Positions 37,226 to 51,299 of a stretch of DNA of 64,000 bases are shown piece by piece. Position 1 is the stretch's first letter, and every line of letters starts with the position of its first letter. Both the position numbers and the translations under genes were made by a program. The notes under the pieces were generated by a model that ran no database searches, had not been told where the DNA came from, and saw only the letters and a list, made by a program, of their open reading frames with translations. The DNA lies in contig NZ_CP059165.1 of the NCBI RefSeq assembly GCF_013466425.1, forward strand, positions 2,666,001 through 2,730,000. The letters run 5' to 3'. This DNA comes from Mycobacterium vicinigordonae (GTDB lineage: Bacteria > Actinomycetota > Actinomycetes > Mycobacteriales > Mycobacteriaceae).

Positions 37226-38494
37226 GTGGGTACCGACGAACTCGCCGAGAATGCGTCGGAAAGCGCACAACTCGACCGCAAAGGCGCGCGGTGTTACGTC
37301 TTTTTGGCTGGCTGGGTGATTTTCTGGGCGGTGGTACATTTATTTATCGTGTTGGCTGTTTTCTCCAACACTGTCATGTTGTTGTCGTACTATGCCGTCA
37401 GCTACCGAAATGGCTTCGTCCGCCGTGGACTTGCGGGTGAACTTTTAAGAGTGTTCCCTGAATCAGATTATTTTGGGGCCGCGTACGCGATCTTGTGGGT
37501 TTCGACAATAGTCTGGCTGATCGCACTCGGCGTTTTAATGTGGCTGGTTCTTTCGCCTAACATCCGCTCTGAGCGACGAGTATTACTAGCACTATTGATC
37601 CCAGTACTTCCATTCTCCTATTCATACGCGATCTATAACTCACACCCCGAGATATTGGGGATGAGTGCCCTGCTGGCTTTCAGCATCGCAATCTGGAAGG
37701 CGCGAACGAGTCGGGTTCGCGTCATCGCGAGTTCGCTCTACGGAATCGCCATAGCCGTTTTATCTTTCATACACGAGGCGATTCCGTTAGAGTTCACGCT
37801 GGGCACGGTCCTGGCGATTATTGTTTTGCCAAAGGGTGCGACAGACTCCGAGCGGCGCCGCTGCTTTTCGTTGGCAGCGCTGCCCGGGCTGGCCGCCGTC
37901 GGTACCATTGTTTTGCTGGGGCGCCGCGACATCTCCGCGCAGTTGTGTACGCAAGTCCCGCACGGCATGGTGGACGATCCGCGCGGCACGGTACCCAACA
38001 CGTCGCATAAGGCGTTTGGCTGTATCTTCGGGCAATTTCAGGGCCAATCGGACCTTCACGATTGGGTGTGCAGCAAGATAATTTTTTTCTTCGACCTCGA
38101 CACGTTTTCTATGGCCCGCGTGGTAGCTTCTTTCGGGATCCCGCGCCTCTTCGCTTCTTTCGTGCTAGGCGTGGTGTTTTTTGTTGCAACACTGTCGGTG
38201 CTGCGATTGGTTTGCGGAGCGCCGGCTCGGCCTTTCTTTCGTGCGGTTGGCGAGCATAAAGCGATCGCCGCGCTGGCGGCAGTACTAGTGATTCCATTAT
38301 TTGTGACCGCCCTAGACTGGACCCGCTGGTGGACCATGATGGCGCTCGATGTGGGCATCGCCTATATCCTCTACTCGCTGGACAAACCAGAGATCGAGCA
38401 ACGGCCGCCGAAGAGGACCGTGCTGGTGTCGATAGCGATTATCATGGTGCTGGCCGTCATCCCCTTTGGAGACGTCAACAATGTCGGGGGATAA
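37226..38494 (+). CDS. Polytopic membrane protein of unknown function
   Basis: This 422-residue protein has about nine to eleven hydrophobic segments and a short polar N-terminus. The loop SYRNGFVRRGLAGELLRVFP, after the first membrane helix, resembles loops in uncharacterised membrane proteins from polysaccharide loci, and the overall layout suggests a GT-C-like or EpsG-like protein, but no catalytic residue can be assigned. Base composition is visibly richer in A/T than its neighbours. It lies between mutB and meaB, where M. tuberculosis has the mazEF4 toxin-antitoxin genes, and ends three bases before meaB. It looks like a transferred gene. Confidence 0.82.
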   Translation: MGTDELAENASESAQLDRKGARCYVFLAGWVIFWAVVHLFIVLAVFSNTVMLLSYYAVSYRNGFVRRGLAGELLRVFPESDYFGAAYAILWVSTIVWLIALGVLMWLVLSPNIRSERRVLLALLIPVLPFSYSYAIYNSHPEILGMSALLAFSIAIWKARTSRVRVIASSLYGIAIAVLSFIHEAIPLEFTLGTVLAIIVLPKGATDSERRRCFSLAALPGLAAVGTIVLLGRRDISAQLCTQVPHGMVDDPRGTVPNTSHKAFGCIFGQFQGQSDLHDWVCSKIIFFFDLDTFSMARVVASFGIPRLFASFVLGVVFFVATLSVLRLVCGAPARPFFRAVGEHKAIAALAAVLVIPLFVTALDWTRWWTMMALDVGIAYILYSLDKPEIEQRPPKRTVLVSIAIIMVLAVIPFGDVNNVGG

Positions 38495-40874: not shown

Positions 40875-41093
40875 CTAGCGATACGAATCTTCTAGGCGGA
40901 AGCCAACTTTCATGGTGACCTGATAGTGGGCTACGGCGCCCTCTACCAGGTCACCGCGGACGGACTGAACTTCGAACCAGTCCAGGTTGCGCATGGTGTT
41001 CGCCGCGCGGGCGAGGCCACTCTTGATCGCTTCGTCGACACCGTCGGGTGAGGTCCCGACGATCTCGATCACGCGGTAGGTGTGATTGCTCAT
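40875..41093 (-). CDS. Dodecin, flavin-binding protein
   Basis: This 72-residue dodecin forms 12-mer shells that store or buffer flavins. It contains the conserved tryptophan in LDWFEVQSVRG and the HYQVTMKVGFRLE strand. It corresponds to Rv1498A. The ATG is the only reasonable start. It marks the left border of the glycan island. Confidence 0.95.
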   Translation of the reverse strand: MSNHTYRVIEIVGTSPDGVDEAIKSGLARAANTMRNLDWFEVQSVRGDLVEGAVAHYQVTMKVGFRLEDSYR

Positions 41094-41141: not shown

Positions 41142-42158
41142 TCAATCGAGGTTTCCGAATGCGGCGATTTGCTCTTGAGTTACCACCAGCGGATCGGCGC
41201 CGTCGTGCACGCGTCGTTCCCAGTCGATGGTCCAGGTGATGGCTTCGCGGAAGCCGAGCCGATTGCGCCAGCCAAGTTCTTTCTGCGCCTTGGTGGCGTC
41301 GAGGGCGAGCAGGTTCGCCTCGTGCGGGTGATCGCCGGGCTGGTTTTCCCAGCGGGCGCCACCGCCCCACAGTTCGGCCGCCAGGGTGGCAACCTGACCG
41401 ACTTCGACGAAGCTGTCGCGGCCTGGCCCGATGTTCCACTGGCCCGCACCAGAGCCGGCCAGCAGCGCGTCAGCGATGCTGAGATAGCCGCTAAGGCAGT
41501 CCAGCACATGTTGCCACGGGCGCACCGCGTGGGGGAAGCGCAGCAGGGGAGGCCTGCCACTTGCGAAGGCGCGCACCAGATCTGGCATCAGCCGCTCGGG
41601 GCTGACGTCGCCGCCGCCGATGACGTTGCCGCCACGGGCGATCGCGGTGGGGCAGCCGGGATAGCTGCGGACCCACGACTGGGTAAGCAGGTCAGCCATC
41701 GCCTTGGAGGCGCTGTAGGGGTCGTCACCGCCCAGGGGGTCGGTTTCGACGTAGCCGGCCTCCTGGTTGATGTTGCGGTAGACCTTGTCGGTGGTGATGA
41801 CCGCGTGCGCGCGCACCGAGGGGGTCTTGCTGACAGCTTCGAGGACGTTGAGGGTACCCATCGCGTTGGTCTCGTAGGTATATCGTGGCTCGCGATAGGA
41901 CTCCCGGACCTGCGACTGAGCGGCCATGTGCACGACGACGTCAGGTGAGATCTCCTCCACAGCGGCAGCGGTAGCCGGGGCGTCGCGGATGTCGACGCGC
42001 AGGTCGTTGATTAGTTCTTCGTCCAACCGGGCCGTCTCGAACAGGCTTCCCTCGGGGGGATCGAGGGCCAGGCCGGAGACTTGGTGGCCGCGGCTGAGCA
42101 GCAGCAGGATGAGCCAGGGGCCTTTGAAGCCGGTATGGCCGGTGATCAGGTAGTGCAT
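41142..42158 (-). CDS. CDP-glucose 4,6-dehydratase-like SDR
   Basis: This 338-residue SDR has the RfbG-type cofactor motif LITGHTGFKGPWLILLLL, the VALDPPEGSLFE-like region, and catalytic Tyr/Lys in DDPYSASKAMAD, with Thr/Asp in ITTDKVY. RfbG enzymes turn CDP-glucose into CDP-4-keto-6-deoxyglucose, the precursor of 3,6-dideoxy and branched deoxy sugars. No CDP-glucose synthase (RfbF), RfbH or aminotransferase is nearby. GAGG lies upstream of the ATG. The frame stays open for 110 codons further upstream (to 42488), overlapping the start of the divergent gene, but that part is not SDR-like. Confidence 0.88.
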   Translation of the reverse strand: MHYLITGHTGFKGPWLILLLLSRGHQVSGLALDPPEGSLFETARLDEELINDLRVDIRDAPATAAAVEEISPDVVVHMAAQSQVRESYREPRYTYETNAMGTLNVLEAVSKTPSVRAHAVITTDKVYRNINQEAGYVETDPLGGDDPYSASKAMADLLTQSWVRSYPGCPTAIARGGNVIGGGDVSPERLMPDLVRAFASGRPPLLRFPHAVRPWQHVLDCLSGYLSIADALLAGSGAGQWNIGPGRDSFVEVGQVATLAAELWGGGARWENQPGDHPHEANLLALDATKAQKELGWRNRLGFREAITWTIDWERRVHDGADPLVVTQEQIAAFGNLD

Positions 42159-42422
42159 GGTCGCCTCGGCCCTCTGGTCGCAAACCTGGAAATGGGATCT
42201 CCTCGTGTGCAGAGTCGTGAAAGCACATAGTAGTGGTGGCCTCTCGGCCAACAACATGCGATACGCATGGAAAGTCTCGCGTTCCCGTACCTGCGGTATG
42301 AATTGTGAAAGCCGCATGTGGACGGCAAAAAGCTCGTACCCTCGTTCCATCGGATTCTCGACTTTGCCGTCGAGGGCCAGGGTTGCGTCGTCGGATTCTT
42401 GGATAAAGCCGGGAAATGAGGG

Positions 42423-43697
42423 GTGGTGGCGGTCCGCGTGGCAAATCAGCCGCAGAAGCGAATCTGCATTATCGGGGGTGCCGGTCACGTCGGCCTACCA
42501 CTGGCACTGGTGTTGGCGGACGAAGGCTACTGTGTCGACATCCTGGACACCAATGCCGTCGCATTGAAGACCATCATGGCCGGCAAGATGCCGTTCATCG
42601 AGAACGGTGCCGAGGAACTCCTCAAACGTTTGCTGCCAACCGGGCGTATTTCAGCTAGTACAGACTCATGGATTGTAAGGAACGCGGACATTGTCATCTG
42701 CGTCGTGGGCACTCCCGTCGATGAGTTCCTGACTCCGCAGGCGCATACGTTCTTTCGCATTATCAACGAAATCAGCCCTTACTTTCACGATGAGCAAACT
42801 CTGGTTCTCAGAAGCACGGTCTACCCGGGGCTCACCCAGCGTGTCCAAGATCTGTTCTACGAGCGCGGGATTGGGGTTCACGTCACTTTCTGCCCAGAAC
42901 GCATCGCTCAAGGCCATTCGATTCGGGAGTTGCGGATCATTCCGCAGATAATCAGCGGATTTGACGCTGAGGGTTTACGGGTAGTTCGCGAGTTGTTCTC
43001 GCACATCACCCCCGAAATCATCGAGGTAGAGCCGCAGGAAGCAGAGCTGGCCAAGTTGTTCTGCAACAGCTACCGCTACATTCAATTCGCGGTAGCCAAT
43101 CAATTCTATCTGCTCAGTCGTGAGGCAGGTGTCGACTACAGCCGCGTTCATCACGCAGCAACGTACAAGAATGGTCGGGTCGACAGCCTTCCACGTGCCG
43201 GGCTGGCCGCGGGTCCGTGTCTTCTCAAGGACACAATGCAGCTGGCCGCGTTCAGCAATAACAACTTCATGCTCGGGCACTCGGCGATGCTTATCAACGA
43301 AGGTCAGCCGCAGTTCATCGTCAACATGCTCAAACAGCGTGTTGATTTGCGGGACAAGGTTGTTGGCATCTTGGGCATGACGTTCAAGGCCGACTGCGAC
43401 GATACCCGTGACTCGCTTAGCTTCAAGCTCAGGCATCTTCTTCTGCTCGAAGCCAAAGAGGTCATCCGGCACGACCCGTTCTTGGCGGGCCCGGACTATT
43501 ACCCGCTGGACACAGTTATAGATCGCGCCGATGTCATCGTTGTGGGCGTCCCTCACTCGGCGTATCGGGGCCTGCGCGTCCCAGCGGGCAAGGTCGTCGA
43601 GGATGTTTGGGGGTGCCTTGACGCCGACTGCGCTGCGGCAGACGCAGTTAGACAGCCCGAATTGCTCCAGCTCGAGGTGGAGGCAGCAGCTCGGTGA
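42423..43697 (+). CDS. Nucleotide-sugar 6-dehydrogenase (UDP-glucose/UDP-ManNAc DH family)
   Basis: This 424-residue enzyme oxidises the C6 hydroxyl of a nucleotide sugar to a uronate in two NAD+ steps. The Rossmann motif is GGAGHVGLPLALVLA; the central helix carries Lys211 and Asn215 (AKLFCNSYRY); the catalytic cysteine is Cys266 in GPCLLKD; the C-terminal domain begins with GILGMTFKADCDDTRDS. It resembles WecC or UGDH, and the substrate cannot be told from sequence. GTG 42423 was kept; a GTG at 42438 is possible. It overlaps the next gene by four bases. Confidence 0.9.
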   Translation: MVAVRVANQPQKRICIIGGAGHVGLPLALVLADEGYCVDILDTNAVALKTIMAGKMPFIENGAEELLKRLLPTGRISASTDSWIVRNADIVICVVGTPVDEFLTPQAHTFFRIINEISPYFHDEQTLVLRSTVYPGLTQRVQDLFYERGIGVHVTFCPERIAQGHSIRELRIIPQIISGFDAEGLRVVRELFSHITPEIIEVEPQEAELAKLFCNSYRYIQFAVANQFYLLSREAGVDYSRVHHAATYKNGRVDSLPRAGLAAGPCLLKDTMQLAAFSNNNFMLGHSAMLINEGQPQFIVNMLKQRVDLRDKVVGILGMTFKADCDDTRDSLSFKLRHLLLLEAKEVIRHDPFLAGPDYYPLDTVIDRADVIVVGVPHSAYRGLRVPAGKVVEDVWGCLDADCAAADAVRQPELLQLEVEAAAR

Positions 43698-44713
43698 AGG
43701 TTCTCGTAACGGGCAGTGCGGGATTCATCAACGGTTACGTGGTCGACGAGTTGCTTCGGGCCGGCCACGAAGTTGTCGGAATTGACAACTATTCGAAGTA
43801 CGGACCAGTCAAGAAGTCCTACGATGATCACCCGAACTATCACTTTGTCGAAGGTGACGTCAAAGACGTCGACTTGATGTTCCAACTTGTCGAGGGCTGC
43901 GAGCAGATGGTCGCCAGCGCTGCGCGCATCGGCGGCATCACGTACTTCCACGAGTACGCCTACGACCTGCTCGCCGAGAACGAGCGCATCGCGGCGGCGC
44001 ATTTCGACGCTGCCATCTACGCCCACCAAAAAGGGTGGCTAAAGAAGATCAACGTAATTAGTTCCTCGATGGTGTTCGAGAATGCAACTATTTTCCCGAC
44101 ACCTGAGAAGCACATCACCGAATGTCCGCCCCCAACAAGTACTTACGGTTTTCAGAAGCTGGCGTGTGAGTACTTTGCTCATGGTGCGTACGAGCAATAT
44201 GGGCTGCCATACACCATCATTCGCCCCTTCAACTGCGTTGGCACAGGCGAACAGCGGGCGCTAGGGGGCCGTGAAATCCCTAGTGGGAACGTCAAACTCG
44301 CGATGAGTCATGTGGTCCCGGACTTGATCCAGAAAGTGGCCAAAGGCCAAGACCCGTTACATATACTCGGCGACGGCACCCAAGTTCGTCATTACACTTA
44401 CGGCGGAGATCTGGCCCGTGGCATCCGGACCTGCATGGAGCACCCGGCGGCACTGAACGGGGATTTCAACCTTTCCACGCCGGAAGCGACGACGGTGTTG
44501 GAACTGGCGGAAGTGATTTGGCGCAAGATGCGGCCGGACACGCCGTTCCGCTATGAAAGCGATCCGCCTTTCGAGCACGATGTCCAGCTCCGCTCGCCCG
44601 ATGTCGAGAAGGCAGCGGAAATGCTGGGGTTCTCCGCAACGACGCGACTCGATGCCATGCTTGACGAGGTCATACCGTGGGTCACCAACGCGGTTGAGGC
44701 AGGCTCGATATAA
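43694..44713 (+). CDS. NAD-dependent epimerase/dehydratase (extended SDR)
   Basis: This 339-residue extended SDR has the cofactor motif TGSAGFINGYVVDELL, a Ser in VISSSMVFE and catalytic Tyr/Lys in STYGFQKLACEYF. It starts with GTG overlapping the previous stop (GTGA), so it probably acts on the same nucleotide sugar, for example as a 4-epimerase or as a uronate decarboxylase giving UDP-xylose. The latter would suit a xylose-containing lipooligosaccharide, but this is only a hypothesis. Confidence 0.88.
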   Translation: MKVLVTGSAGFINGYVVDELLRAGHEVVGIDNYSKYGPVKKSYDDHPNYHFVEGDVKDVDLMFQLVEGCEQMVASAARIGGITYFHEYAYDLLAENERIAAAHFDAAIYAHQKGWLKKINVISSSMVFENATIFPTPEKHITECPPPTSTYGFQKLACEYFAHGAYEQYGLPYTIIRPFNCVGTGEQRALGGREIPSGNVKLAMSHVVPDLIQKVAKGQDPLHILGDGTQVRHYTYGGDLARGIRTCMEHPAALNGDFNLSTPEATTVLELAEVIWRKMRPDTPFRYESDPPFEHDVQLRSPDVEKAAEMLGFSATTRLDAMLDEVIPWVTNAVEAGSI

Positions 44714-44742
44714 CGTGCACGGTTGGTACTCTTAGGGGCGCC

Positions 44743-46224
44743 ATGCGTATCGCGGGTGATATCGATCTCCAGCAGCTGTACCGCAATCGATTCGGCCATG
44801 ACGCCGACTCGCGATCTGCAATATGGAGAGTATTGGTCCAAGACTTCTTTCAGGCATGGGTCAGACGCAGCGACACCGTACTTGACCTAGGTTGTGGTTA
44901 CGGCGAGTTTCTTAACCACATAACCGCGGCTCGACGTATCGGGGTCGATCTGAACCCGGATACTGCCAAAATGGTGAACAGCGGGGTCGAGTTTCATCAC
45001 AGTCGAGCCGACAAGCTTGACTTCCTTTCTGAGGATTCGGTTGACGTCGTTTTCAGCAGCAATCTGTTAGAGCATCTGCAAACCAAGGAGGAAGTGGAAC
45101 GCACCATCGCCGAAGTGCGGCGAGTGTTGAAACCGGGCGGCCACTTCATCGCGCTAGGTCCCAATATTCGCTTTCTACCCGGCGAATATTGGGACTATTG
45201 GGACCATACTGTACCTATCAGTGATCGCTCCTTGAGTGAGCTACTACAAATTAACCAATTCGAAGTGCTGGAAAACTACGAACGTTTTCTTCCGTACTCG
45301 ATGTACTCACCGTTGCCGAAGTCGCCGTTTCTGGTCCAGCTGTACCTGCGCTCACGATCAGCCTGGCCGCTAATTGGGAAGCAGTTCTTGATCCGTGCCC
45401 GGAAGATGGCAACTCTCCCAGACCAGCAAGAGCAGCTCATCAGTGTGGTCATCCCGGTGTACAACGAGGGCGAGAACATTCAAGTCTGCATCAGGCGGCT
45501 TAACGAGGCACTATCCGGCACACCGCACGAACTGATTATCTGCTACGACTTCGACGAAGACACCACGCTGCCCGCAATCGAGGCGATGGCCGACCGGCCT
45601 TCCACCGTCCGTTTGGTTAGAAACTCGCTGGGCAAGGGGGTGGCCAATGCGTTGATTGCCGGTTTTGCCGCTGCCGCGGGCGACGTCGTCGTCACCAGCA
45701 TGGCAGATTTGTCGGACCCGCCCGCAGTTATTCCTTTGATGGCAGCGAAGATTCGCGACGAAGGTGCCGACGTTGTCAGTGGATCACGGTATATGCGTGG
45801 CGGCTCCCAGCAAGGGGGGCCGCGGTTGAAGACCCTGATGTCGAGAACGGCCGGGCTAAGTCTGCACTACGTAGGGCGCCTACCCACCCGCGACGCAACG
45901 ACCAACTTCCGTGGATATAGTCGCCGATTTCTGCAAGACGTAGCAGTGGAGAGCGTCCGTGGCTTCGAGGTGGGCTTGGAGCTCACCACCAAAGCGCACC
46001 TTCTCGGTTATCGAGTAGATGAGGTTCCGAGCAGCTGGGTGGACCGGACTGCCGGCACCAGCAGGTTCGACCTCGCCGGATGGTTGCCTGCCTATCTGCA
46101 TTGGTATGGGCTGGCCATGCGGCGGCCGTTGCTGCGTTGGACCGGTGGAGGGCTTGCCTCATTAGGGGTGCTAGGTCTATTGCGTCGGAAGCAAAGCGAC
46201 AGTAGTCAAACTCGGAAGTTGTGA
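44743..46224 (+). CDS. Methyltransferase-GT2 fusion protein
   Basis: One open frame of 493 residues joins two enzymes. Residues 1-215 form a class I SAM methyltransferase (motif I VLDLGCGYGEF at 46-56, with SSNLLEHL following). Residues 233-460 form a GT2 glycosyltransferase like dolichyl-phosphate mannose synthase: ISVVIPVYNEGENI, the acidic DFDEDT at 269-274, DLSDPPAVIP and SRYMRGG. A hydrophobic C-terminal stretch (GGGLASLGVLGLL) could touch the membrane. An internal ATG at 45406 could start the GT2 part alone. The fusion suggests that methylation and glycosyl transfer act on the same acceptor. Confidence 0.86.
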   Translation: MRIAGDIDLQQLYRNRFGHDADSRSAIWRVLVQDFFQAWVRRSDTVLDLGCGYGEFLNHITAARRIGVDLNPDTAKMVNSGVEFHHSRADKLDFLSEDSVDVVFSSNLLEHLQTKEEVERTIAEVRRVLKPGGHFIALGPNIRFLPGEYWDYWDHTVPISDRSLSELLQINQFEVLENYERFLPYSMYSPLPKSPFLVQLYLRSRSAWPLIGKQFLIRARKMATLPDQQEQLISVVIPVYNEGENIQVCIRRLNEALSGTPHELIICYDFDEDTTLPAIEAMADRPSTVRLVRNSLGKGVANALIAGFAAAAGDVVVTSMADLSDPPAVIPLMAAKIRDEGADVVSGSRYMRGGSQQGGPRLKTLMSRTAGLSLHYVGRLPTRDATTNFRGYSRRFLQDVAVESVRGFEVGLELTTKAHLLGYRVDEVPSSWVDRTAGTSRFDLAGWLPAYLHWYGLAMRRPLLRWTGGGLASLGVLGLLRRKQSDSSQTRKL

Positions 46225-46273
46225 CGCAATTCGTTGCCAGCGCAGAGTACACAACTCTGGGAAAGAGTAGTCA

Positions 46274-47881
46274 ATGGCTGAGCAAGATGATCAACAACAC
46301 TCGCCGATAGATGCGAATACCCGCACTGCGGATTCTGTCTTGAATGCTAGTTGCGATGCTACAACGAGCTCGGCCGAGTCTTTATCCGAGTCGCCGCCAC
46401 ATCCAAAAGTTTCATTCGGACTGCTGGCAGCGGTTGCATGCGTGGTGCTCGGTGCAAAGCTTCTAGTAATCTCGGTACTCGGTTCTCCATCACCGCTTTT
46501 AGATCAATGGGACGGAGAGGGCGACAATTTATATGTTCCCTATTTGAGGGATGAGTTGACAATTTCGCACCTCTTTGCATCGCATAACGAACATCAAATT
46601 GTCCTCTTTCGTTTGCTGGCACTATTTCATTTAGAACTGGCAGGAGAATGGAACCCGCGTCTGGAGATGATTCTTGGCGCATTAATTCATGTCGTCGTAG
46701 TTACCTGGTTAGTAGCGCTGCTCATACCGCTAATCTCTCCGCAGCGCCGACTGCTTTCTGCCTGCTTTATCGCTTTCGTCTTTGCGCTACCAATCGGCTA
46801 TGAAAACCTACTCTGGGGCTTCCAGGACCAGATCTATTTTTCGTTACTTTTCGGTCTCGCGACCATCGCCGCATTTGTCGTCGCAGAGCCTTTCTCTTTG
46901 CGGTGGTTTGGTGGTTTGACCGCTGCGGTACTGAGTTACTTCTCCTTTGCGACAGGGGTAGCCGCGATCCTCGTCGCCGGTGCCCTAATCAGCCTACAAA
47001 TGGGAACCCGTGTCAGGAGGCGGCGTGGGCGCGAATATGCAGGACTTTTCGTGTTGGCGTTGATAGCTGGAATGATGATCCTGTGGACAATATCGCGCGC
47101 GAATTCAACGACCACCACTCCGTTGGCATTCATTATCGGATTTGTTGTACTCGCCGGCCCGACCATAGTGGGAACAATTGTCATCCAAATACCGGTTATC
47201 TGGTTTATTAAACACACGGTAGCAAGGCGCCCAGTAATCTCTGACCCGGCTTGGGTAGCAATTGGAATTGCTGGATGGGTTTTACTACAGCTCGTATTGA
47301 TCGCCTACGGGCGCGGGACTGTTTTTGGTGTCCGGTACTTAGATATACTCTTACCGATGTATCCAGTAGCGCTTGTAGCTGTATTCACATATGCCGATGC
47401 GACACGCGGTATGCAATTTGAAAAATATACCAGACGCGCCAGTGTCGCTTGGGTTTTTGGGATAGTAACGGCTGTCGCATTATTGGGCTACTTCGCTTCG
47501 ATTCTCCAGTCGATCGACTGGTCTAGGTCGGCAAACCAGCAGATGTCAAAAGTGCAAGCATATCTTCACACCGGAGACCGCAACGATCTCAGGCCAAAAG
47601 TCGGCGGCGGCAACACCGTGGATGTCTCTTTTCCCAATGCTCAGAAACTGGCATCAATTCTTGACAAGCGCGATATCAGGGCCATCCTGCCGCCCCAACT
47701 CCGTCCTGCCGACGCAGACATCGGTCAGGCTCGAAACCGCATGTGGCTTCGCGGTAGGTTTGCCAGTTCCACCGCAGCGACAATGCACGTCGTCCTCTCC
47801 ATTGGCCCGGCATTTCTAGCAGTAGGTGTGGGTCTGTTCTTTGCGATTGGCGCAAGACGGAAAGCTTTCGCGGCAGACTAA
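46274..47881 (+). CDS. Large polytopic membrane protein, possible GT-C-like enzyme
   Basis: This 535-residue protein has a Ser/Thr-rich cytosolic N-terminus of about 45 residues and about ten to twelve membrane helices. After the first helix there is an outer loop with SPLLDQWDGEGDNLYVPYLRD and ASHNEHQIVLFRLL. An acidic outer loop placed just after helix 1 is the usual site for GT-C active residues, but no family can be named with confidence. Codon usage is visibly A/T-richer than in core genes. It corresponds in place and type to the membrane genes of the M. tuberculosis Rv1500s region. It is 49 bases after the fusion gene. Confidence 0.82.
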   Translation: MAEQDDQQHSPIDANTRTADSVLNASCDATTSSAESLSESPPHPKVSFGLLAAVACVVLGAKLLVISVLGSPSPLLDQWDGEGDNLYVPYLRDELTISHLFASHNEHQIVLFRLLALFHLELAGEWNPRLEMILGALIHVVVVTWLVALLIPLISPQRRLLSACFIAFVFALPIGYENLLWGFQDQIYFSLLFGLATIAAFVVAEPFSLRWFGGLTAAVLSYFSFATGVAAILVAGALISLQMGTRVRRRRGREYAGLFVLALIAGMMILWTISRANSTTTTPLAFIIGFVVLAGPTIVGTIVIQIPVIWFIKHTVARRPVISDPAWVAIGIAGWVLLQLVLIAYGRGTVFGVRYLDILLPMYPVALVAVFTYADATRGMQFEKYTRRASVAWVFGIVTAVALLGYFASILQSIDWSRSANQQMSKVQAYLHTGDRNDLRPKVGGGNTVDVSFPNAQKLASILDKRDIRAILPPQLRPADADIGQARNRMWLRGRFASSTAATMHVVLSIGPAFLAVGVGLFFAIGARRKAFAAD

Positions 47882-48081: not shown

Positions 48082-48813
48082 TCAGTTGACTTCCCGGAAA
48101 AAAATTCCGTCAGCTTGGAGCATTCTTCCGTTCCGCATATCGGTGAAGCAGGGCCGCAAGCCTGTTGGGGTGAAACCCAGCGAGGCGGCGATATCCAGGG
48201 CCTCGCGTATGAGTGTCCCTCCTTCGTACAAGGGTAGGAAGGAAAGTTCAAGTTGTATTCCGGCACAATAGTTTTGAATTGTTTCACCGCCGCCGGCGAG
48301 AACTTCTTTTTCAAACCCTTGGACGTCGATCTTTAGGAACGCGACATCAGACGGCTGTAGGATATCAGCAGCCACTGAATCGAGGCGCCTTACGGGAACT
48401 TCTTCGGTGCCAACATAATTGGCCGGAGGATAGGCTTCCTGATGACTCTTGAGCATCGGTAGCACCGAACTACTTTCACCCGCGTTGCCCGCGACGTTGA
48501 TGGAAATGGTTCCGTCGGAATCGCCCAGTGCGCTGCGATGGCATTCCCATCGCGGATCGGTTGACGCCCTGCGCTCCAAGATGGCGTAAGGCCCAGATAG
48601 CGGTTCGAACGAGACAATGCGGCCTTGGAAGCCCGCTGCACGCAAATCGCTCGCGTATTGCCCGGAGTTTGCACCAATGTCAAGAATTACAGTTACCCGG
48701 TGGGATTCGAGTTGGCGCATAAAATTGCGCTCAAAGTCCCAGTCGGGGCGGTAGCGGGATAACTCGATACCACTGCGGCGCAATAGGTTACGAGCGCGGT
48801 GTGAGAATTTCAC
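48082..48813 (-). CDS. FkbM-family SAM methyltransferase (Rv1513-like)
   Basis: This 243-residue O-methyltransferase of the FkbM family has motif I VILDIGANSGQYASDL, the FEPL segment (IVSFEPLSGPYAILE) and the active-region KIDVQGFEKEVL. It probably methylates a sugar hydroxyl of the glycolipid. The length equals that recalled for Rv1513, which likewise follows gmdA-epiA. GTG 48813 gives MKFSHRARNLLRR. It is 40 bases after epiA. Confidence 0.9.
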   Translation of the reverse strand: MKFSHRARNLLRRSGIELSRYRPDWDFERNFMRQLESHRVTVILDIGANSGQYASDLRAAGFQGRIVSFEPLSGPYAILERRASTDPRWECHRSALGDSDGTISINVAGNAGESSSVLPMLKSHQEAYPPANYVGTEEVPVRRLDSVAADILQPSDVAFLKIDVQGFEKEVLAGGGETIQNYCAGIQLELSFLPLYEGGTLIREALDIAASLGFTPTGLRPCFTDMRNGRMLQADGIFFREVN

Positions 48814-48853
48814 TGCGCCACAGTAACACGCAAAACCGCTGTGTACGGCTGCT

Positions 48854-49822
48854 TCATTGCCGCACTGTGTTTGCGTTCTCACGGTACCAAGCCACCGTGG
48901 CCTCGATTCCGTCACGAAGTGAGATTCCAGGTCTCCAACCGGCCTGCTGAAGTACTGAAACATCCAGTAGCTTGCGTGGCGTTCCATCGGGTTTGCTTTT
49001 GTCCCAGCGGGTTTCACCGCTGTAGCCAACAGCCGCGGCGACCAGCTCGGCGATCTCGCTGATCGTGTGGTCGACACCAGTGCCAACGTTGACCTGTTGC
49101 GGTCCATCGAAGTGTTCCAGCAGGTAGAGACACGCACTCGCCAGATCATCGACATGTAGTAGCTCGCGGCGCGGAGTTCCGGTGCCCCAGTTGGTTACTT
49201 CCGGCTTGCCACTCGCCTTCGCGTCCTCGTATCTGCGGATTAGCGCCGGAAGCAGATGTGAGCCGGATGGAGAGAAATTATCGCCAGGGCCATAGAGGTT
49301 GGTGGGCATCGCCGAAATCCACGGCAGACCGTGCTGGCGTCGTATTGCCTGCACCTGCAGAATGCCGGCGATTTTTGCAATCGCATAGGCATCATTCGTT
49401 GGTTCCAGAGGTCCGGTGAGGAGGGCGCTTTCTGGGATGGGCTGTGGGCTGAACTTGGGATAGATGCATGAGGAGCCGAGGAATAGCAAGCGCGGGACGT
49501 GCGCCGACACGGCGGCGTCGAGCAAATTTACCTGGATCTGCAGGTTTTCGGAGAGAAAATCAGCGGGACGCGTGCTGTTGGCCATGATGCCGCCGACCCT
49601 GGCCGCCGCATCAATGACGACACTTGGTCTCGATTCGCGGATGAAGTCGAACGTCGCGGCCCTGTCGGTCAAATCGACTTCGCTGCGGGACTTAAGGATC
49701 AGGTTGGTGAAGCCCTCGCTGGTGAATTGGCGCACCAGGGCAGACCCGACCAGTCCGCGGTGGCCAGCGATGTAGACCGGGACGGCGCGGTCGAGTTTGC
49801 CGACCGCAGTGTTCGCACTCAT
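48854..49822 (-). CDS. epiA: EpiA, GDP-L-fucose synthase family
   Basis: This 322-residue SDR (GMER family) has the cofactor motif [15 protein letters not shown], Ser in [15 protein letters not shown] and Tyr/Lys in [11 protein letters not shown]. The family epimerises and reduces GDP-4-keto-6-deoxy-mannose, the product of GmdA, to GDP-L-fucose. The start overlaps the gmdA stop (ATGA), so the two are made together. L-fucose is reported in M. kansasii-type lipooligosaccharides. Confidence 0.93.
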
Positions 49823-50841
49823 GTCAGGCCTGAGGGCACTGGTTTGTCTATCCACGGTTTGCCCTCGCACTCGAGCGCGGCAATGTCGGCGTCGACCATG
49901 ATTCGTGCAAGCTCGCCCGTGTGCACGGAAGCTCGCCACCCAAGGGCGTCGGCTGCTTTGGACGCGTCACCGATCAGAGAATCGACTTCGGTGGGCCGCA
50001 AATAGCGCTCGTCAAACTTGACATGCTCCTGCCAGTCGAGTCCGGCATGCTCGAATGCCGTCTGGGCAAACTCTTGCACGGTGTATCCGCGCCCGGTCGC
50101 GAGTACGTAGTCATCGGGCTCCGAAGCCTGCAGCATCCGCCACATGCCTTCGACGTATTCAGGCGCGTAACCCCAATCGCGGACCGCGTCGAGGTTGCCC
50201 ATGTAGACGTCGGATTGGATCCCTGCTTTGATGCGGGCTACCGCTCGCGTAATCTTCCGAGTCACGAATGTCTCACCGCGACGGGGTGATTCGTGATTAA
50301 ACAAGATGCCATTGACTGCGAACAGCCCATAAGCCTCGCGATAGTTACGTGTCACCCAGTACGAGTAAACTTTTGCGGCGCCGTAGGGGGATCGCGGATA
50401 GAACGGTGTCAGCTCGTTCTGAGGCGGGGGCGACGCACCGAACATCTCGGATGAAGATGCCTGGTAGAACCGGCACTGAACCCGGGAAAGGCGAACGGCC
50501 TCTAGCAAACGCATAGATCCCGTACCCGTGGTGTCGCCGGTATGAACGGGTTCGTCAAAGCTGACTCGCACATGCGATTGCGCCGCAAGGTTGTAGACCT
50601 CGTCGGGTTCGATCGTGCTCAGCAAGGTCACTAGGCGGGTTCCGTCAATCAAGTCGCCGTAGTGCAGGAACAGGCGTGCACCCGATTCGTGGGGGTCGAC
50701 GTACAGGTGGTCGATACGCGACGTGTTGAACGTCGAAGCCCTACGGATCAGCCCATGTACCTCGTAGCCCTTGCTCAGCAGAAGTTCGGCGAGATATGAA
50801 CCATCCTGTCCCGTGATTCCGGTGATCAGGGCTCGTTTCAT
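49819..50841 (-). CDS. gmdA: GmdA, GDP-mannose 4,6-dehydratase
   Basis: This 340-residue SDR makes GDP-4-keto-6-deoxy-D-mannose. The cofactor motif is [18 protein letters not shown]; catalytic Tyr/Lys lie in [12 protein letters not shown]; the Ser/Glu pair is in [10 protein letters not shown]; and the GMD-specific [16 protein letters not shown] is present. It is first in the gmdA-epiA-fkbM operon. In M. tuberculosis (Rv1511-Rv1513) the same block is on the other strand relative to meaB-lipL. Confidence 0.95.
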
Positions 50842-51299
50842 CGGATTCCTACGCGTCCCATGGTAACCGTCCTGCTCCTTGCGTTGGTGTACCTGGCGTG
50901 CCCCCATAGTTGCTTCATACTAGATGTCGACTGGCAAGCAACCGGGTAATACTGGGGCTCAGGCCGCCGCGTCGGTGCCGCTTCGATAGGGATCGAATCT
51001 GCGCTGCGGTGGCTTGCTACTCGACGAGCTCCGCAGCGATCATTGGCTGGCCCCTTTGGAGTCGAACGGTCTGGACCGGTCCCGGCTTCCTGAAGCACGT
51101 TCGAGTCCAACCGTTGCCGCCGACGGGATGGGGATGTCAATTCCAACGCTGCATTTTCTTTGTTGGCAGTAATCACTTTCTGATGCCACATTCGACGATC
51201 GTAGTGTGACTTGGCAGTGTGCGATCTGGCGCTGGTTCGCACGGTCGCCTTGCGGATACAAAAATGTTAACGAGTTTTGACTTGTGACGAAGTGTTATA
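50842..51299. other. Non-coding region upstream of gmdA
   Basis: These 458 bases hold no gene I can support; the frames here have random-looking composition. A promoter for the gmdA operon is expected near its left end on the minus strand. The right end is A/T-rich (around 51260-51300), next to the stop codon of the following gene. No repeat or IS end was recognised. Confidence 0.5.

Follow-up and report, generated by a model that had tools for sequence, protein, structure and literature searches.

A probably laterally acquired gene cassette in a Mycobacterium gordonae-clade genome, predicted to make a lipid-linked uronic acid

The cassette and its predicted pathway

The window, a stretch of 64,000 nucleotides from Mycobacterium vicinigordonae (NZ_CP059165.1, positions 2,666,001 to 2,730,000), holds a sugar-nucleotide island between the genes for dodecin and GDP-mannose 4,6-dehydratase (gmd). 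We propose, with moderate confidence, that a laterally acquired cassette in this island makes a uronic acid linked to polyprenyl phosphate, and that a transferase of the GT-C type moves this sugar onto a glycan of the cell envelope. The cassette consists of a nucleotide-sugar dehydrogenase (NSD), a member of the short-chain dehydrogenases/reductases (SDR) and a fusion of a methyltransferase (MT) with a family 2 glycosyltransferase (GT2), and the transferase would here be a membrane protein of 535 amino acids, MP535. To our knowledge no donor of this kind, a lipid-linked uronic acid, has been described for the envelope of mycobacteria, and if the proposal is true it would place acidic sugars on surface glycans. 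The original prediction listed these genes and a CDP-glucose 4,6-dehydratase, five in all, between dodecin and gmd, and all five are found there; it called the set of enzymes unusual, and the family scores largely bear out the families it named. The host is a 6.27-Mb single-contig genome of the M. gordonae clade, and judged by the island its closest named relatives are M. paragordonae, with 96% in SDR, and M. gordonae, with 90-91% in NSD.

NSD (42423..43697), SDR (43694..44713), MT-GT2 (44743..46224) and MP535 (46274..47881) all lie on the plus strand, the first two with a 4-bp overlap and the later ones with gaps of 29 and 49 bp, and look like one operon. The dehydratase (41142..42158, minus strand) is divergent from this unit, and the intergenic region 42159..42422 presumably holds the promoters of both. 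The GC content is 57.3% in NSD, 56.9% in SDR, 56.7% in MT-GT2 and 51.8% in MP535, while the dehydratase with 66.4% is at the level of the core (65.7% in window positions 1-37000), and the foreign-looking unit thus begins at NSD. The earlier remark that several genes are richer in A and T is therefore right for these four genes and wrong for the dehydratase.

NSD scores 254.4 bits against the nucleotide-sugar dehydrogenase model TIGR03026 (cut-off 189.8). Nucleotide-sugar 6-dehydrogenases use a Cys, a Lys, an Asn and an Asp in catalysis, and C266, K211, N215 and D270 of NSD align with those of the P. horikoshii enzyme 4r16, all in conserved columns of the family. The expected product is a nucleoside diphosphate (NDP) uronate, and the first step of the pathway would be oxidation at C6 of an NDP-hexose, either UDP-glucose or a UDP-N-acetylhexosamine (UDP-HexNAc).

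SDR matches PF01370 and no equivalog above cut-off among the models listed. Its relatives are numerous, at least 7,998 of 8,000 scored proteins at E<=1e-60, and the subfamily has no close solved relative, the best match in the PDB reaching 123 bits. The signature motifs are SSSMV, FQKL and SHVVPD; Y151 and K155 of the YxxxK motif and SSSMV at 123-127 are invariant in 48 sequences. Two other kinds of activity were rejected on these motifs. Sugar-nucleotide 4,6-dehydratases have the catalytic motif T-D-E/K, which is missing here, where SSSMV stands at 123-127 (the true dehydratase of the island has TDK). GDP-mannose 3,5-epimerase and GDP-fucose synthase, which are weak PDB relatives, use a catalytic Cys that has no counterpart in SSSMV. 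What is favoured is an epimerase-like enzyme acting at C4.

Among the six best solved relatives by profile match is the UDP-glucuronate (UDP-GlcA) 4-epimerase of Bacillus cereus, 6zl6, with which SDR shares the fold, the Tyr and Lys of YxxxK and a Ser-rich loop, at an identity of 24-25% and with motifs of its own. Y151, K155, Ser124 and Ser125 fall on Y149, K153, Thr126 and Ser127 of 6zl6, and M126 on Ser128; we take the Thr and Ser of 6zl6 in this loop to be those that contact the UDP-GlcA carboxylate. According to the available parts of a study of this epimerase, the carboxylate of UDP-GlcA is bound by Thr and Ser residues, and for UDP-galacturonate (UDP-GalA) this role falls to Arg185 (PMC12338863). 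One point weighs against our proposal and has lowered our confidence in it: Arg185 aligns with Gln187 of SDR, the invariant Arg188 stands one column further on beside an insertion, and a column-for-column equivalence of Arg185 and Arg188 fails in the alignment. Arg188 may or may not take the part of Arg185. The structure model has the extended-SDR fold of epimerases, but this fold is common to many SDR classes and the comparison of structures does not discriminate between them. It is mainly because of the partner NSD that we think of a uronate as the substrate, and the second step would then be epimerisation of the NDP-uronate at C4, for example to UDP-GalA.

Another reading keeps the rest of the pathway and takes UDP-HexNAc as the substrate of NSD and SDR, so that the lipid-linked product would be a HexNAc-uronate such as GalNAcA or ManNAcA. 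The best solved relative of NSD, 4r16, is annotated as a UDP-ManNAcA dehydrogenase (142 bits), and the UDP-GlcNAc 4-epimerases WbpP and WbgU are among the structures nearest to the SDR model. NSD is however far under the cut-offs of the equivalog models for UDP-ManNAc dehydrogenases, as it is under those for UDP-glucose dehydrogenases, and no test result decides between HexNAc and hexose; we regard this reading as rather unlikely, yet worth keeping in mind.

The third step would be carried out by the MT-GT2 fusion, which has a class I methyltransferase at about residues 30-180 (PF08241) and a GT2 domain at about residues 228-470 (PF00535). The seven best of 26 solved matches of the GT2 half are dolichol-phosphate-mannose synthase (5mlz, 96 bits), ArnC and sll0501, the last of which we take to be GtrB, and by these matches the domain is of the polyprenyl-phosphate type. 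The position of the DXD metal motif reads MAD in the alignment, where 5mlz has DAD. GT2 would load the uronic acid onto polyprenyl (decaprenyl) phosphate. Methylation of the sugar or of its carboxylate would fall to the fused MT. One genome with a divergent cassette, G018, has MT and GT2 as two adjacent separate genes after SDR, and MT thus belongs to the unit there too. The genome G195 has the MT-GT2 fusion and, immediately upstream of NSD, an additional gene of its own for a relative of the methyltransferase (46%; G195:C1:277023-277667).

After flipping of the loaded carrier, a GT-C enzyme would in the fourth step attach the sugar to an acceptor at the outer face of the membrane, possibly the lipooligosaccharide (LOS) made next door. 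MP535, with about ten transmembrane (TM) helices, matches no family in Pfam or NCBIfam, and its structure models as a GT-C-like transmembrane fold. GT-C transferases have a conserved acidic residue in the first outer loop; D77 of MP535, which is located after the helix 45-69, is invariant in 50 sequences. MP535 is thus a candidate for the transferase that uses the lipid-linked sugar. The original prediction noted neither the polyprenyl-phosphate character of GT2 nor the GT-C-like model of MP535, and it is these two features that make a lipid-linked sugar probable. A homologue of MP535 lies directly after the cassette in locus L082 (hhalign 96.3%, E 1.9e-9, 128 columns). No match was found when the MP535 profile was run with hmmsearch against 22 multi-TM open reading frames (ORFs) from relatives. 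The window also has, between mutB and meaB, a gene of lower GC content for a protein of 422 amino acids and about nine TM helices, MP422 (37226-38494), without a match in Pfam; relatives at 45-50% occupy the equivalent site in some other mycobacteria. MP535 was matched neither by MP422 nor by the neighbouring proteins of L033, L086 and L029 that were compared with it.

A simpler picture would be an ordinary supply of soluble sugar nucleotides for LOS, in which LOS itself is the cytoplasmic acceptor of GT2 and the membrane protein has no part. Genes for envelope glycolipids do adjoin the island, and MP535 is separable from the cassette. This picture is nevertheless improbable, given that the best matches of GT2 are polyprenyl-phosphate transferases, that GT2 is fused to a multi-TM region in L033 and L037, and that the genes around the three in L031 and L038 have, by eye, no apparent relation to them. 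The two fusions are Planctomycetota ORFs, L033:12265-15705 and L037:12252-14792 (-), which join the GT2 of the cassette to a region of 10-11 TM helices.

It is very unlikely that NSD and SDR instead oxidise and decarboxylate their substrate to a UDP-pentose, UDP-xylose or another, for the xylose of mycobacterial LOS: UDP-glucuronate decarboxylases are among the PDB relatives of SDR (about 85 bits), but Met126, invariant in the 48 sequences, stands opposite the Glu of STSEVF in 8vr2, the chain with which this column was compared, and M. kansasii and M. marinum, although their LOS contains xylose, are not among the named NSD loci of a scan by exact peptide words in one genome per species. UDP-xylose synthase (UXS) has its catalytic Glu in a TSEV motif, the motif of 8vr2 being shared by UXS and ArnA, and the replacement by Met disfavours decarboxylation. 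Of the products first claimed, a deoxysugar (from the dehydratase) and a probable uronate (from NSD and SDR) are supported, and xylose is disfavoured. As described in the available portions of two accounts, the LOS of M. kansasii contains glucose, 3-O-methylrhamnose, xylose, fucose and N-acylkansosamine (PMC4403928) and that of M. marinum xylose and caryophyllose (PMC12507525), and those portions do not mention uronic acid. In the parts of the open-licence literature that a search for the cassette and for uronic acids in mycobacterial LOS returned, we found no description of the cassette.

Distribution and lateral origin

In one draw of 198 Mycobacterium genomes, 17 have NSD (E<=1e-40), 17 have SDR (E<=1e-80) and 17 have MT-GT2 (E<=1e-40); these are the identical 17, with the coordinates side by side in every one. 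The probability of drawing the same 17 at random is about 7e-25 if kinship is ignored. The version in G018 is divergent (NSD 49%, SDR 67%, GT2 51%, MT 46%). Of 27 named mycobacterial NSD loci (L003-L030 without L029), 25 carry SDR and MT-GT2 after NSD, with 30-42 bp between matches; L022 ends at a contig end, and in L026 NSD is followed by an ORF of 519 amino acids and seven TM helices, with no SDR found within 2 kb. The chromosomal site is shared, because lipL is present in 26 of the 27. Records of M. tuberculosis, M. kansasii and M. marinum are missing among the 51 NSD loci, which is suggestive only, since these loci come from a search by exact peptide words that covered a single genome of each species. 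Carriage on plasmids was considered and rejected, as the plasmid collection has no match to SDR (E<=1e-40) or to NSD (E<=1e-60).

In one genome the cassette is duplicated, and its second copy of NSD contains one in-frame TGA (G007:C51:122350-123543); another genome has an MT-GT2 match with one TGA (G074:C1:393510-394979). Near the cassette of M. innocens lies a GtrA-type gene (PF04138; L008:18365-18880); none was noticed in the island of the window, where no dedicated search was made.

Outside Mycobacterium, the same SDR adjoins NSD at 61-75% identity in 10 of 24 loci found with NSD (L029 and L031-L053; the SDR of L052 is cut by a contig end) and does not in the other 14, and a GT2 at 31-65% is found somewhere in the retrieved DNA of 16. 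The order NSD-SDR-GT2 is seen in L031 (Margulisbacteria), L038 (Saganbacteria) and L040 (Dehalococcoidia). A search with SDR in 296 genomes of Actinomycetota gave 12 positives, of which we examined nine loci outside Mycobacterium, leaving out the genome of the window, G017 and a 49% match in G323. NSD lies within about 1 kb in all nine and GT2 too in eight (not in L087), between NSD and SDR in six of them and after SDR in two. The three genes are thus clustered in Planctomycetota, Margulisbacteria, Saganbacteria, Dehalococcoidia and other actinomycetes.

When 20 loci are concatenated, an unrooted tree separates Mycobacterium together with L029, a locus of Planctomycetota, from the other 13, eight of which are from actinomycetes, and the support for this split is 100%. 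It is in agreement with the trees of NSD and of SDR; the GT2 tree places L029 with L033 and L037 of Planctomycetota (81%). The split and the low GC content together indicate lateral gain, and the NSD-SDR-MT-GT2 cassette was probably acquired in this way.

A wider hypothesis, which we put forward only tentatively, is that a self-contained NSD-SDR-(MT)-GT2 cassette makes one and the same undescribed lipid-linked sugar across many phyla. This sugar would not be plain GalA and would be defined by the strongly conserved SDR subfamily, for which we found no solved or characterised member; the mycobacteria would have captured the cassette from a Planctomycetota-like source and would pair it with interchangeable GT-C transferases. 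The core genes occur together in bacteria of several phyla, many of these bacteria being known solely from metagenome assemblies. If the enzyme set of one mycobacterium that can be cultivated were solved, thousands of proteins from the environment would gain a function.

Relation to known systems

Mycobacteria make no lipopolysaccharide (LPS), and we do not claim literal membership of the rhizobial Rgt system, whose acceptor is the LPS core or lipid A. By analogy this system is nevertheless the closest working model for the pathway proposed here. In the available sections of two reports, RgtE is a bactoprenyl-phosphate GalA transferase, and RgtD and RgtF are GalA transferases (PMC7663294, PMC5644692). 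The likeness, as we propose it and with no Rgt protein aligned, would be a uronic acid on polyprenyl phosphate that is used by a further transferase. As far as those sections describe them, the Rgt genes act on lipid A, whereas in the island a single unit holds the supply enzymes, MT and GT2; compared with Rgt, the SDR subfamily is also new, as is the membrane protein. From the other polyprenyl-phosphate sugar systems, ArnC/ArnT and DPM/PMT, the island differs in its donor, which is predicted to be a uronic acid.

The dehydratase and a separate deoxysugar branch

The dehydratase scores 363.5 bits against TIGR02622 (cut-off 278.45) and is the only copy above cut-off in the genome. Like its best PDB matches, the CDP-glucose 4,6-dehydratases 1rkx and 1wvg, it has the TDK motif. 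The listed ORF of 448 amino acids, which reaches 42488, is too long, because the family matches start at about residue 111-113, and a start at an internal Met gives 338 amino acids. The cytidylyltransferase is in this genome not close by: an rfbF-like gene (TIGR02623, 456.8 bits, cut-off 300.25) lies at 427406, 2.3 Mb away, beside a 3,5-epimerase-like gene (PF00908) and two genes of O-methyltransferase type. The dehydratase would together with the first two form a separate branch for a CDP-6-deoxysugar. In M. gordonae DSM 44160, the cassette is followed downstream by genes for a nucleotidyltransferase, a PF00908 protein and a sugar C-methyltransferase of PF08484 (L003:17010-19607), suggesting a branched deoxysugar in that species, and the place of the branch thus shifts between genomes. 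A branch of caryophyllose or kansosamine type was rejected, as PF01041 has six matches in the genome that exceed the Pfam cut-off of 19.8 bits but are all weak (<=37.5 bits) and partial.

Among the genus genomes, 31 have the dehydratase, 16 at >=75% (eight with the cassette) and 15 at 46-53% (three with the cassette). Since the 16 genomes of the first group and the 17 with the cassette share just eight, the distributions overlap only partly, which gives no support to the idea in the original prediction of a single combined pathway.

Flanking genes

The dodecin gene (40875-41093, minus strand) is the left border of the island. On the other side, also on the minus strand, follow an FkbM-family methyltransferase (48082..49155 as the listed ORF, with the true start probably further in; TIGR01444), a GDP-L-fucose synthase-like gene, fcl (48854..49939, start uncertain; NF047922, 428 bits, under the cut-off of 500), and gmd (49819..50907, start uncertain; TIGR01472, 495 bits, cut-off 415). 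Together with a second GT2, ABC transporter genes, a GT28-type glycosyltransferase, an AMP-binding (FadD-type) enzyme and an MMPL protein, these make the neighbourhood one of the LOS type. In other mycobacteria, loss of LOS has been linked to rough colonies and to altered interaction with the host, according to the accessible part of one account (PMC8093194). Downstream of the window, about 11 kb apart, are two ORFs of great length, 2,092 and 2,083 amino acids (G000:C1:2735702-2741980 and 2752704-2758955; L126 and L127), which by eye and without a family scan look like polyketide synthases.

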